DNA of 40,704 nucleotides from Candidatus Aenigmatarchaeota archaeon. Lineage in GTDB: Archaea; Aenigmatarchaeota; Aenigmatarchaeia; CG10238-14; SCSR01. Of this stretch, positions 5,415 through 24,748 are shown in pieces. The notes under the pieces were generated by a model, which worked only from the letters and a program-made list of their open reading frames with translations, was not told the origin of the DNA and made no database searches. The DNA is taken from assembly GCA_030615205.1 (NCBI GenBank), contig JAUWZS010000003.1, forward strand, positions 1-40,704, given 5' to 3'. Each line of letters begins with the position of its first letter. Position 1 is the first letter of the stretch. Position numbers and translations under genes: made by a program.

Positions 5415-6013
5415 CGTGGTTTTCGGATAAAGGTGTGGAAATTAGCAAGGAAGATCTCCATCATATTCATACTGAGGTTAGAAATGAGAGAAGATTCTGG
5501 TACGATAAAATTGTTGCTTACGTGAATTTCTATTCTACGATAATCTCTGCTTTATTGTCTGGTTTTATCCTAGGCTTAACCCAGGTGAACAATTTAGGAC
5601 AATTCAAATATGCTTTGCTCATCATACCAATAATATCCACAATCCTATCTAGATTCGCTAGAAGAACTATTCGACTTATCTTTAGACAGTTTATTGAGAA
5701 CACTGGGGTAATGGCTAAATTAGAGTTGATAATGGGTATGTATGGCCCCATAAAGTCAAAGAATATTCCTACCAATATCTTATTTCCTCGGGATGAGACT
5801 ATAAATCCTATTAGACACTACAGTAATCTTCTACGTTTTGAAAAGATGGAAGAGTTTGTAGAAGATGAGCTTAAACAACCTGATAGGATCTTCAAAATGA
5901 AACAACGGGTATTCTTAATACTAGAAATATTGTCAATAATAATGTTAGTAGGTGCTCTAGTCCTAATGATATGGGGGACATCGGGAACGTTGCCTTTGCA
6001 AAACATTTCCTAA
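5411..6013 (+). CDS. Four-helix membrane protein of the Nudix/radical SAM operon
   Basis: 200 residues. The start ATG 5411 overlaps the radical SAM stop (ATGA) and has an AAAGGAAA ribosome site; the longer ORF start at 5381 is less likely. Two hydrophobic helices lie at about residues 36-78 and one or two at about 165-190, with a soluble loop between. An amphipathic N-terminus (EVRNERRFWYDKIVAYVNF) recalls small SLATT-like two-helix effector proteins, but I cannot assign it firmly. The C-terminus (LPLQNIS) is encoded inside module B1, so it may have been extended at cassette joining. Confidence 0.65.
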   Translation: MTWFSDKGVEISKEDLHHIHTEVRNERRFWYDKIVAYVNFYSTIISALLSGFILGLTQVNNLGQFKYALLIIPIISTILSRFARRTIRLIFRQFIENTGVMAKLELIMGMYGPIKSKNIPTNILFPRDETINPIRHYSNLLRFEKMEEFVEDELKQPDRIFKMKQRVFLILEILSIIMLVGALVLMIWGTSGTLPLQNIS

Positions 6014-10839: not shown

Positions 10840-10924
10840 CAGAAGGTCTACCCGCACTTCGCATAACATCGTGTTTCTCGTTTCGCTCAAACCCACCTAT
10901 GGTGGGATTCAGATATGCTCAAAT

Positions 10925-11152
10925 CTATGAAAATCATGTTCTCAAGCAACAATTTTTAAGGTCTAATATATTGACCACTAATCTATTCATCCTGACTTGA
11001 CGGATATTGTGTTTATACGATCAAGCCGGGGTCGAGTAATAAATGTTATAACCTGCCAGAGCTAATCTCAACCTCCTTTTTTCTTGTATTATCTCTCTTT
11101 CAAGTATATAATAAATCAAAAGGGGTGGATTTTCATAATATAAACGTTAGAT
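10925..11152. repeat. Intergenic module C, copy 1
   Basis: About 225 bp highly similar to 14635-14857: GAAAATCAT, CTAATCTATTCATCCTGACTT, GGATATTGTGTTTATACG, CCAGAGCTAATCTC. It ends CATAATATAAAC followed by GTTAGAT, an R' element (11146-11152). Includes a promoter. Confidence 0.85.
11084..11112 (+). promoter_or_regulatory. Sigma70-type promoter in module C1
   Basis: TTGTAT (11084-11089), 17-bp spacer, TATAAT (11107-11112). Conserved in C2. Confidence 0.6.
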
Positions 11153-14529: not shown

Positions 14530-14634
14530 TAGGAGGTGACTTCAGACAACACACCATATGCGCCTGGGCTTACCCCTTGCCCTTCGGAACATTGCTCTCT
14601 TTGGTCGCAACCTCACATACGCTGGAATCTACGA

Positions 14635-14857
14635 AAATCATTTCGTCAACAAACACTTTCTAAGATCTAGCACATTGGCCACTAATCTATTCATCCTGAC
14701 TTAATGGATATTGTGTTTATGCGGCCAGGTATAGGTTCAAGTAACAAATGTTGCAACTTACCAGAGCTAATCTCGATCTGCTTTTTTTCTTGTGCTATAT
14801 CTCTTTCAAGTATATAATAGACTAGAAGGGATGATTTTCATAATATAAACGTTAGAC
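14635..14857. repeat. Intergenic module C, copy 2
   Basis: Second copy of 10925-11152, ending in TAATATAAAC followed by GTTAGAC (R', 14851-14857), the classical integron core form GTTAGACGCC. It follows an attC-like stretch (14530-14630) with ACAACACACCATATGCGCC. Confidence 0.85.
14790..14818 (+). promoter_or_regulatory. Sigma70-type promoter in module C2
   Basis: TTGTGC (14790-14795), 17-bp spacer, TATAAT (14813-14818). Confidence 0.6.
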
Positions 14858-15100: not shown

Positions 15101-16327
15101 ATGTCGAAGTACTCCTTCCTGTGCTGGGACAGAATCAACGCAGGTGAATTTGAGCAACTTTGCCAAGCTATCCTAGGAAGCCTGGGCTTCGCAAATCTTG
15201 TTCGGATAGGTGGTTCAGGTGACAGGGGCAGGGATATAGTCTGTAATCTCACAATAAACGTGGGAAAGAATCTATCCTTCATGACAAATTGGGTAGTGCA
15301 GTGTAAGCATTATTGCTATAGCCCAACAGTCAGCAAGCTTAAGGATGACCTTACAAAGGCTCTTCAGCATGAGCCTGATTTTTGGCTCTTGATGACCTCT
15401 GCTTCTCCTCTCTCTCCGTCGGTTCATGATTGGCTTAGAGCGGTAGAGAAGAAACAATTCAGCTTTCGAATTTTGGTCATGGATGGCGTGGAGATTAGCC
15501 GCATAATACTGCAGCGACCTGTTCTTGCTCACGACATGATGGACCGGCTCTTCACAGACGACCGCCTTGAGACGAGACAGATTATGGCTCTGATGGGCAA
15601 GAGACACTATGACAAAGCGCTCACCACGATACAAGGGTTCCAGGGTCGAGCAACTCCAAGGATGGCGTATCTTGAGGCCTGTTGTAGGTCAATGCTGGCC
15701 CAGAGGTCTAAACAAAATCGCACTGAAAATGTAGAAAAAGCTTTTGCAGCCTTAAAGGAAGCGTTGGGAAGTGGTTACCTTACACAAATGAACCTCACCC
15801 TCGGCTGGCCCCCAGAGAAGGTTCTCTATGAAATCCAAAGCGACCCAGAACTGCAATTCCTGAAAGACCAAGACCTGTCATGTTTCATCAAAACCCTCGA
15901 GGCCTCTGGCTATGCTACAAGAGGTGAAGGTGGTGGATGTTTTGTGGCTGATACACCGATTCGCTTCCCAGAAGGAATTGAGAAGCCTATATCTTCAGTA
16001 GAAGTCGGGGACATTGTGGCAGTACCAAGCAGGCCTTCAAAAGGAGCATTTGTGATTGGAGTTTCTCATGTCAATGAGAATTGCGTTGTGTCAATCAATG
16101 ATAGAGTTTGGTGTTCCCTAAGCCAGAGCCTTCTTACGACTTGGGGTTGGAAAAGGGCTGTTGCACTTCAATACGGTGATATTCTCCTAGGGTATCCCAT
16201 AATAGAGCCCGTTGTGTCCCTACGGTACGAGCAAAACACCTATGAAGTGTATATGATTCGCTTGGCAGAAGAACATGTATTTTATGCCAGCGATTATATT
16301 GCTCACAATAAATTAATGATAGACTAA
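15101..16327 (+). CDS. Mrr-like nuclease, TPR-like linker and C-terminal Hint domain fusion
   Basis: 408 residues in three parts. Residues 8-135 form an Mrr-type restriction-like domain: FEQLCQAILGSLGF, GGSGDRGRDIV (Asp45) and VVQCKHY (Gln67, Lys69), the D-QxK form of PD-(D/E)XK. Residues about 160-275 are helical and TPR-like. Residues 280-403 look like a Hint (hedgehog/intein) domain: GGGCFVADTPI starting at Cys280, EKPISSVEVGDIV, GWKRAVALQYGDILL, and a terminal AHN at 401-403. The usual block B TxxH reads CSLSQ here, so self-cleavage may be impaired. A Hint domain at the C-terminus of a DNA-cutting enzyme could control its release. A single cassette after module C2. Confidence 0.75.
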   Translation: MSKYSFLCWDRINAGEFEQLCQAILGSLGFANLVRIGGSGDRGRDIVCNLTINVGKNLSFMTNWVVQCKHYCYSPTVSKLKDDLTKALQHEPDFWLLMTSASPLSPSVHDWLRAVEKKQFSFRILVMDGVEISRIILQRPVLAHDMMDRLFTDDRLETRQIMALMGKRHYDKALTTIQGFQGRATPRMAYLEACCRSMLAQRSKQNRTENVEKAFAALKEALGSGYLTQMNLTLGWPPEKVLYEIQSDPELQFLKDQDLSCFIKTLEASGYATRGEGGGCFVADTPIRFPEGIEKPISSVEVGDIVAVPSRPSKGAFVIGVSHVNENCVVSINDRVWCSLSQSLLTTWGWKRAVALQYGDILLGYPIIEPVVSLRYEQNTYEVYMIRLAEEHVFYASDYIAHNKLMID

Positions 16328-22169: not shown

Positions 22170-22736
22170 TTAGTATGATGCCTACAAAAGATATCCATGA
22201 CTTCAATGCTAAGTATAAAGCAGCTCTGGAACAGGTTAAAAGATCGACGATATCTCAGAAGAATAAAGACTTGATCCTGGATTTTGACAGAACTTGCTTC
22301 CTCGAAGGATTGAGCAAACCAAGACGAATTAGGCTAGTCGGTTCCCTTGTTAGATTAGCAGAGCGCTACTTGGCAAAGGATTTTGATAAGGCGACAGAAA
22401 AAGACATTAAGAAAGCTGTTATGCAGATAGAGTCAAGAGAAGATTGTTCTGTTTGGACAAAGCATGGCTACAAAACTACCCTAAAGAAATTCTACAAATG
22501 GTCGGAGTATGGGGACAATTACAAGCAAAGGAATGATTACCCTAAGATTGTGAGCTGGATCAACGCCAACATCAAGAAAAAGGATAAGCCTCGGGTGCAA
22601 GCATCAGATATTCTCACGGAGAAAGAGATCAAGAAGCTCTGGAGTGAACCCCTGAAACTGGACAAAATGACTTAGAGTGGCTAGAGTATCTGACAGGGCC
22701 AGCAGATCCCCAAAAGGGGTTGAAAGGAGCCTGTGC

Positions 22737-23087
22737 ATGAGAAAGGCAAGAACCTTTACCAGCCAGTTCAAACGAGAAGTCGTGGAAGAGCTCCTCAGCG
22801 GAACCACCGGACCGGCCCAACTTGCCAGGAGATATAATCTTTCCTCCGGTCTTCTGTATCACTGGAAGAACCAGTATGTCCGAGGCAAACTCAATAATGA
22901 ACCTGCCGAGGAAGCTGCTCTTCGGGACCGTGTCAGCCAACTAGAACAGATACTGGGCAGACTCACCTTGGAGAATGAGTTTTTAAAAAAAGCTTTAGAG
23001 AACACCCTCAAGGAACAGAGAAAAAAAGAGAGTTCATTCATCTCCACCAGGGCCTCATCCCTAGTACCCAAAGGGGGTGTGAGCTAA
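22737..23087 (+). CDS. IS3-family transposase OrfA (helix-turn-helix)
   Basis: 116 residues from ATG 22737 (AAAGGAG upstream); an in-frame GTG at 22677 lacks a ribosome site. FKREVVEELLSG, QLARRYNLSSGLLYHWKNQY is the IS3 OrfA helix-turn-helix that binds the terminal repeats. A leucine-zipper-like coiled coil follows (VSQLEQILGRLTLENEFLKK), used for dimerisation. The stop overlaps the OrfB start by one base (TAATG), pointing to translational coupling rather than the usual -1 frameshift. Confidence 0.9.
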   Translation: MRKARTFTSQFKREVVEELLSGTTGPAQLARRYNLSSGLLYHWKNQYVRGKLNNEPAEEAALRDRVSQLEQILGRLTLENEFLKKALENTLKEQRKKESSFISTRASSLVPKGGVS

Positions 23088-23917
23088 TGAAGATCCCCCG
23101 CAGCACCTTCTATTATCAAGATAAAGAGAAGCCTTTCGAAGAGCTTAAAGCCGAGATAGATCTTGAGGATGAGACCGAGAAGATTTGCCTTAACTGGCCC
23201 CGCTACGGCTACCGACGGGTGACCAAACAGCTCCATCGAGAAGGCTGGAAAGTTAACCACAAGAGAGTTCTGAGAATGATGCGGGAAAATGATCTTCTCT
23301 GCCGAGTGAGAAGATGGGGAGTGAAAACTACCAACAGTAACCACTCACATCCGGTATTTCCCAATCTCATCCAGGATCTTCTCATCACCTCGATCAATCA
23401 GGTTTGGGTTTCGGATATCACCTACATTCGTCTGCCCACAGCATTTGTGTACCTGGCCGTCATTTTGGATCTCTACTCTCGACGGGTGATTGGATATCAT
23501 CTTTCCCGGCACCTGGATGCTACCCTTACCCTGAGGGCTCTACGTCTGGCGATAAGCGAGAGAGATCCTGCCTCCGGCTCTATTCACCATTCCGATCAGG
23601 GAGTACAGTACGCCTGCTCGGATTATGTTAAAGAGCTTCTGGAACATGGCTTTAAGATCAGCATGGCCCGACGGGGCAATCCCTATGACAATGCCGTCTG
23701 TGAGAGCTTTATCAAAACACTAAAGGATGAGGAGATCTACCTCTGGGAGTACAAAACCATGGAGGATGCCGAGAGGAGAATTTGCCATTTTATCAAGGAT
23801 GTGTATAATGAAAAGCGACTGCACTCATCATTGGGCTATTGCCCACCCAATGAGTTTGAGGAGCAGTTGCTGGATAAACAAAAACCAACTGTTCCCTCTC
23901 AGATTACTCTAACCTAA
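23087..23917 (+). CDS. IS3-family transposase OrfB (DDE integrase)
   Basis: 276 residues. An N-terminal helical region (NWPRYGYRRVTKQLHREGW) precedes the retroviral integrase-like core. Asp110 (WVSDITYI), Asp170 (HHSDQGVQY) and Glu206 (NAVCESFIKTLK) form the DD(35)E triad, with a Lys at 210. The end carries the usual YNEKRLHSSLGYCPP motif. All key residues are present, so catalytic activity is expected. Confidence 0.93.
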   Translation: MKIPRSTFYYQDKEKPFEELKAEIDLEDETEKICLNWPRYGYRRVTKQLHREGWKVNHKRVLRMMRENDLLCRVRRWGVKTTNSNHSHPVFPNLIQDLLITSINQVWVSDITYIRLPTAFVYLAVILDLYSRRVIGYHLSRHLDATLTLRALRLAISERDPASGSIHHSDQGVQYACSDYVKELLEHGFKISMARRGNPYDNAVCESFIKTLKDEEIYLWEYKTMEDAERRICHFIKDVYNEKRLHSSLGYCPPNEFEEQLLDKQKPTVPSQITLT

Positions 23918-24748
23918 TTTGTCCAACCATAGGGGTTCACCCCACTCATAGGTGTAGCAGAACATCCCAGGGATAAGGCATTCATTTCTATGTTATATGA
24001 GCTTGGTGCCAGAATTGGAGAGATAGGATCTTTGCAAATCAAGGATATTACAAGAGATAAGTATAGCTATATAGTCGATTTAAATGGTAAGACCGGACAT
24101 AGAACTCCCAGGATAGTTATGTCTGATCCTTACGTTACGGGCTGGCTTAATGTACATCCACTAAAATACAACCCTGAAGCTCCATTGTGGGTTATGACGG
24201 GGAACAGAGACAAGAATGAAAAGATGAAATACGGGACTTTCAGAGCACTTATTCTCAGACTGAGAAAGAAAGCTAAAATCAAAAAGAGGCTCTATCATCA
24301 TCTTCTCAGGCACACCAGAGTAACTCATCTTTTGATTAATAGACAAATAAGCGAGGCTCAAGCTAAGGTTTACTTTGGCTGGGTTCCCTCAAGTACTATG
24401 CTCGCTGAATATTCCCATCTTCTCTCAAGTGATGTGAACGATACTATTTTAGAAATTCATGGAATTAAGAAAACAAAGGAAAAGGAAAGTGTACTGAAGC
24501 CAAAGCAATGTCCATCGTGTAGCGCAATTAACTCTAAAGATGCTCTCTTTTGCCAGAAATGTAGCAAAGTCCTAGATGTGAAAACAGCAATAGAGCTTGA
24601 TGAAAAAAGGAAAAGCTCCGATGAGATAATAACTGCTTTAGCTAATAATCCAAAAAGCTTGAAGAAATTGGCCGAGATCTTGTCAGAGCTTGGCTTAGTG
24701 AAGAAACTGATGGAGATTTAAACGTGCAATGAGAGAATGTGTGAATCC

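Follow-up and report, generated by a model that had tools for sequence, protein, structure and literature searches.

A predicted Mrr-type nuclease in an Aenigmatarchaeota assembly carries a BIL-like Hint tail with an altered block B

Does a Hint domain that stands behind a nuclease and has lost conserved block B residues still cleave the protein that carries it? The question is raised by one gene in a 40,704-nucleotide stretch of contig JAUWZS010000003.1 (assembly GCA_030615205.1, Candidatus Aenigmatarchaeota archaeon), called the window below. An earlier note, made from the sequence alone, described the gene product as an Mrr nuclease joined through TPR-like helices to a C-terminal Hint domain and asked whether the altered block B points to a sensing rather than a splicing role. 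The relevant features are as follows.

15101–16327, + strand: ORF of 408 residues encoding an Mrr nuclease, a helical linker and a C-terminal Hint (stop codon included)
15128–15502, + strand: Mrr_cat nuclease domain, residues 10–134 (Pfam PF04471, 38.3 bits; PDC-M58A match over residues 9–144)
15233–15307, + strand: predicted nuclease active-site stretch, D45 to Q67-C68-K69 (residue check and three-sequence alignment)
15563–15904, + strand: mostly α-helical linker, residues about 155–268, about 120 residues (secondary structure of the model)
15932–16312, + strand: Hint domain, residues 278–404 (profile, AlphaFold2 model, structure matches)
15935–15940, + strand: Gly279-Cys280, the would-be N-terminal cleavage junction (residue check, alignment)
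16112–16126, + strand: altered block B, C338-S339-L340-S341-Q342 replacing xTxxH (alignments, profile, residue check)
16304–16312, + strand: end of block G, His402-Asn403, and the +1 residue Lys404 (residue check, alignment)

The frame is open throughout and has no internal stop. The Mrr_cat score lies well above the Pfam cut-off of 21 bits, and the PADLOC model PDC-M58A was matched with an E-value of 9.9e-28, which places the domain among the M58A nucleases. The catalytic motif of Mrr_cat nucleases consists of D and QxK. All of these residues were found in place, as the earlier note had read them. An alignment of three sequences, plasmid relatives among them, showed R44, D45, C68 and K69 to be invariant, with Q67 replaced by Glu in one relative. 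The ORF encodes a predicted single-gene Mrr-type, PDC-M58A-like nuclease that is probably cytoplasmic and of the defence type; the defence role is one that we infer from the family names and the neighbouring genes. In a PADLOC scan of three neighbouring genes none matched another model of PDC-M58, a candidate defence system made up of a gene pair.

Nucleases of the M58A type were rare in the sampled groups. They occurred in 2 of 145 genomes among the relatives (the present genome included), in 2 of 395 genomes in the phylum of locus L062, and in none of 9 Hint-bearing genomes, a search that had no positive control. Nuclease domain and motif are shared by the present protein and the PDC-M58A/Mrr_cat nucleases, but the three M58A-family ORFs that were examined, all from the search of the L062 phylum, have different C-terminal regions and no Hint. 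A Hint is likewise missing from L089, a protein from the phylum of L061 in which the M58A-type nuclease stands behind a TIR-like domain recognized by eye. The link to TIR fits an M58A-type nuclease acting as a defence effector.

The region behind the nuclease is predicted to be helical with low to fair confidence, the mean pLDDT in AlphaFold2 being 79–86 for residues 161–180, 71–77 for 181–200 and 45–60 for 201–270. The N-terminal part modelled alone with one weak relative reached a mean pLDDT of 46, which was too poor for a structure search. The helices proposed earlier are thus borne out as a prediction but their TPR nature is not established: no Pfam TPR model reached E ≤ 1 in the linker, so that "TPR-like" describes helices. 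An NCBIfam match to the CFI-box sorting motif at residues 256–266 was taken as chance because it lies away from Cys280 and the model is only 14 positions long; the name of this motif did not occur in the papers searched.

For the C-terminal domain the Pfam Hint model (PF01079) gave 14.2 bits, below its cut-off of 29.7, and the assignment therefore rests on a broader profile and on the fold. When 19 Hints of other loci were combined into a profile that left out the window sequence, this profile aligned in full to residues 278–404 at 67.4 bits, whereas 2000 shuffles of the segment reached 7.0 at best; the hhalign probability was 99.3%. Modelling with AlphaFold2 from 20 Hint rows gave pLDDT values of 89–97 in blocks spanning residues 281–400. 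The top PDB matches of this model in Foldseek were the BIL2 and gp41-1 intein structures, and VIA-align Z-scores were 19.4 for BIL2 (6y75_B), 18.6 for gp41-1, 18.4 for the C. thermocellum BIL (2lwy) and 16.7 for Hedgehog (1at0). Structure prediction had been proposed in the earlier note as the check on a Hint fold after residue 280, and the fold is present in the model; the domain ends in A401-H402-N403-K404, in agreement with the AHN end read before. Identity to other Hints is 22–33%. By profile and model the predicted Hint fold is genuine and complete, from Cys280 to His402-Asn403.

The motifs within this fold are partly kept and partly changed. Cys280 follows directly on a Gly-rich hinge (GEGGG|C), and T285, Gly-Asp at 303–304, the CFxADT block and His402-Asn403 are retained; five residues only, KLMID, follow Asn403. 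At block B the Thr and His of the relatives are replaced by Ser339 and Gln342, and in block F Met385 stands where relatives carry Asn. For type A BILs the review PMC4031507 gives a C-terminal His-Asn, no nucleophile at +1 and a predominance of cleavage products. The present tail has Cys280 at position 1, the C-terminal His402-Asn403 and, at +1, the non-nucleophilic Lys404. With the type A BIL 2lwy and its structural relative BIL2 of Tetrahymena (6y75/6tmm) it shares the fold (Z 18.4 and 19.4), the first Cys, the terminal His-Asn and a Gly-rich flank. It differs from them in the Ser/Gln and Met substitutions, including loss of the block B TxxH that drives the N–S acyl shift, in being followed by KLMID alone, and in having a predicted cytoplasmic nuclease as partner. 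Judged by these motifs the tail is BIL-like in layout and, because the block B TxxH is replaced, is not classed as a working BIL.

That CSLSQ is a departure from the xTxxH of relatives, as the earlier note had proposed, was confirmed by a census of related Hints. The census covered 68 loci with 98 domains at E ≤ 1e-4, from which 14 identical ones were removed to leave 84 distinct domains and a further 33 incomplete ones to leave 51 that were counted. The loci had been found via similarity to the Hint under study and via patterns for block A or G, block B playing no part in the selection, and the census profile was itself built from part of the census rows. Among the 51 complete distinct Hints the block B His was present in all 51 and Thr in 47; block F had Asn in 40 and Asp in 5. 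The domain ended in His-Asn in 48 of the 51, with Lys at +1 in 27 and Gly at −1 in 17. Loss of the His in 0 of 51 corresponds to a 95% upper bound of 5.7% in this sample, in which the loci are mutually related, so that the 51 Hints are not 51 independent events. The block B change itself is known from one sequence, in which a single codon may be affected by an error of sequencing or assembly. Separately, a viral contig (L050) encodes two distinct Hint-like domains without the block B His; both were read without Cys1, kept the His-Asn, and were among the rows dropped from the census. Another protein, of a related genome (L015), contains four tandem Hint domains with HNK and Gly-rich joints between them.

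What these motif states mean for function depends on the reaction considered. Useful splicing is ruled out by the anatomy of the protein and was never possible, since the Hint has only KLMID behind it and a +1 nucleophile is missing. What matters instead is N-terminal self-cleavage, and the change in block B points to its loss or slowness. In an intact design Cys280 would attack the peptide bond at Gly279, and hydrolysis of the resulting thioester would free a 279-residue nuclease from the Hint tail. In the present copy this step would most likely be lost or very slow because the block B His has become Gln342, the block B Thr Ser339 and the block F Asn Met385; the stable product would then be the full-length nuclease carrying a folded Hint tail. 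The domains, the fold and the motif states are what the analysis shows; the chemistry and its loss we infer. For the Ssp DnaB intein, PMC6333167 states that the first step cannot do without the block B His if the −1 residue is Gly and that bulky −1 residues compensate. With Gly279 at −1 and the block B His missing, this published work predicts that the first cleavage step is stopped. We give about even chances to the explanation as a whole, a defence-type Mrr nuclease with a BIL-like Hint tail whose N-terminal self-cleavage is lost or very slow. As a counterpoint, the CFxADT block, Cys280 and the His-Asn end have survived strong divergence, which suggests that some chemistry is still under selection.

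The same survival bears on a rather unlikely alternative in which the Hint is still functional: a compensating residue would replace the His, and the nuclease would be set free by cleavage at Gly279, perhaps only under a condition such as heat, a thiol or a certain pH. The retained residues would suit this, T285 and Gly-Asp 303–304 among them, and Ser339 and Gln342 are both polar. A small group of natural inteins without the block B His, such as those of the Tko CDC21-1 type, still splices by means of another residue according to PMC6333167. However, the −1 residue, a Gly, offers no steric compensation of the kind known from that source, the block F Asn is also lost, and no relative sharing the present block B was found among the 51 complete Hints.

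Partner and position also have to be considered. Hedgehog has the same order, with an effector followed by a C-terminal Hint, and matches in fold. The sterol-recognition region of Hedgehog (Hog) lies behind its Hint; in contrast, the present protein has no sterol-binding tail there but does have the terminal His-Asn. In polymorphic toxins a HINT peptidase and a nuclease likewise occur within one protein, and PMC3482391 places the HINT just ahead of the toxin. Those proteins are exported and have the toxin C-terminal to the Hint, whereas the present protein has its nuclease at the N-terminus and the Hint last. The view that it is unusual for a Hint to stand behind its partner therefore holds for the polymorphic toxins but not in general: in 17 of the 51 complete census Hints the domain ends within 20 residues of the C-terminus, and the Hedgehog proteins agree. 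The C-terminal cases include phage structural-looking proteins and proteins from the phylum to which the window belongs (L002, L003/L011). Several proteins have Hints in Gly-rich stretches comparable to the GEGGG found here.

Such placements suit an alternative that we hold to be unlikely, namely that a BIL-type module landed in a Gly-rich tail and is now a decaying passenger with no notable role for the nuclease. Gly-rich stretches of unrelated proteins do host Hints, as in phage structural-looking proteins (L042, L054, L056 and L058, named by eye), and in two bacterial genomes (L059, L063) alpha-2-macroglobulin-like proteins, also named by eye, are interrupted by Hints at a Gly-rich or GG point. 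The third-position GC of the Hint (0.377) is unlike that of the two N-terminal parts of the gene (0.513 and 0.508), a weak sign that the tail may have been acquired separately, and the usual residues of blocks B and F have disappeared. Decay is at odds with an open frame, with a Hint fold predicted intact at high confidence, and with the fact that Cys1 and the His-Asn end are still in place. The passenger reading shares ground with that of lost cleavage; what separates the two is whether the protein still depends in some way on its tail.

A tail that still matters without cleaving could be a stable latch or binding module that keeps the nuclease switched off or acts as a trigger sensor. An intact fold combined with loss of block B is the expected look of a pseudo-enzyme regulator, but no finding speaks directly for a latch or for sensing, and no ligand, partner gene or relatives are known; we consider this a very improbable alternative.

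Other proteins of this design were sought with the whole protein and with its parts. Close relatives of the whole protein were confirmed for none of 21 pattern matches in genome contigs and none of 5 in viral contigs, and phages gave no match; a search with the Hint alone gave 30 matches in viral contigs, of which none was confirmed. Plasmids yielded one record in one whole-protein search and two in another, matched in the nuclease part only. Full-length searches gave matches in 9 of 145 genomes (own included), 0 of 95 (without a positive control) and 5 of 349, and nuclease and Hint occurred in one match only in the present genome. With the A4 profile 10 of 119 matched stretches were confirmed, and 8 of 108 in a second search; none of these matches extended into the nuclease. 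These scans rest on short patterns or sampled groups, and the fusion may occur elsewhere. The open-licence papers searched contained no report of Mrr fused to a Hint or intein-like domain, or of a Hint domain combined with a restriction endonuclease, TPR or conflict systems. The parts are all known, and an N-terminal Mrr with a C-terminal Hint that has lost block B was not met elsewhere in the scans or in that literature.

The 16S of the genome is archaeal, and its phylum, as represented among the genomes searched, is small and consists of reduced genomes. Tetranucleotide comparison neither joined the contig to the rest of the bin nor separated it, the contig carries no marker that fixes its owner, and a tail gene, read as GH130-like, had no match in the same family. 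Membership of the archaeal bin is favoured, short of proof, because a promoter-like repeat is common to the contig, to contig C35 of the bin and to another genome of the same class. This repeat of about 50–110 bases, with the core CTTAACAAAAAGCGAATTTCGTATATAATTGA, occurs in 11 copies on the + strand between 2097 and 20271 of the window, in two copies on C35 (L083, 446–2407) and once in the other genome, upstream of a gene (L094). The copies lie mostly directly before single orphan genes, which are varied and often defence-like, and the arrangement resembles an array of gene cassettes or else a common promoter cassette.

Further repeats were observed in the window. A second family has five copies with CCCTCCAAACAGATTGACAA between 29184 and 35074, before genes that include a SIR2-like one. 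A third upstream element is present in two copies of about 82% identity, at 10909–11151 and 14613–14856, and one copy precedes the Mrr-Hint gene. Repeats related to it lie behind genes at 6002, 9655 and 16373, the last downstream of the Mrr-Hint gene. The repeated upstream elements may merit at least as much attention as the fusion itself. At 22175–24721 a tyrosine recombinase, whose right half matches Phage_integrase and whose end may form a zinc ribbon, is apparently split by an insertion with two ORFs (22677–23917), which we take to be an IS3-like element.

An archaeal defence nuclease might retain the Hint fold, drop self-cleavage and use the tail as a permanent latch or trigger-binding part, which we think improbable; if true, it would put an intein-like fold to a non-splicing, non-cleaving regulatory use. 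Should the tail be a decaying passenger only, it would show how freely BIL-type modules move among unrelated proteins. If Hints can be attached to nucleases inside the cell and self-cleavage is lost afterwards, the role of intein-like modules would extend beyond the maturation of exported or phage proteins, and whether a Hint tail regulates a defence nuclease would become a simple bench question.
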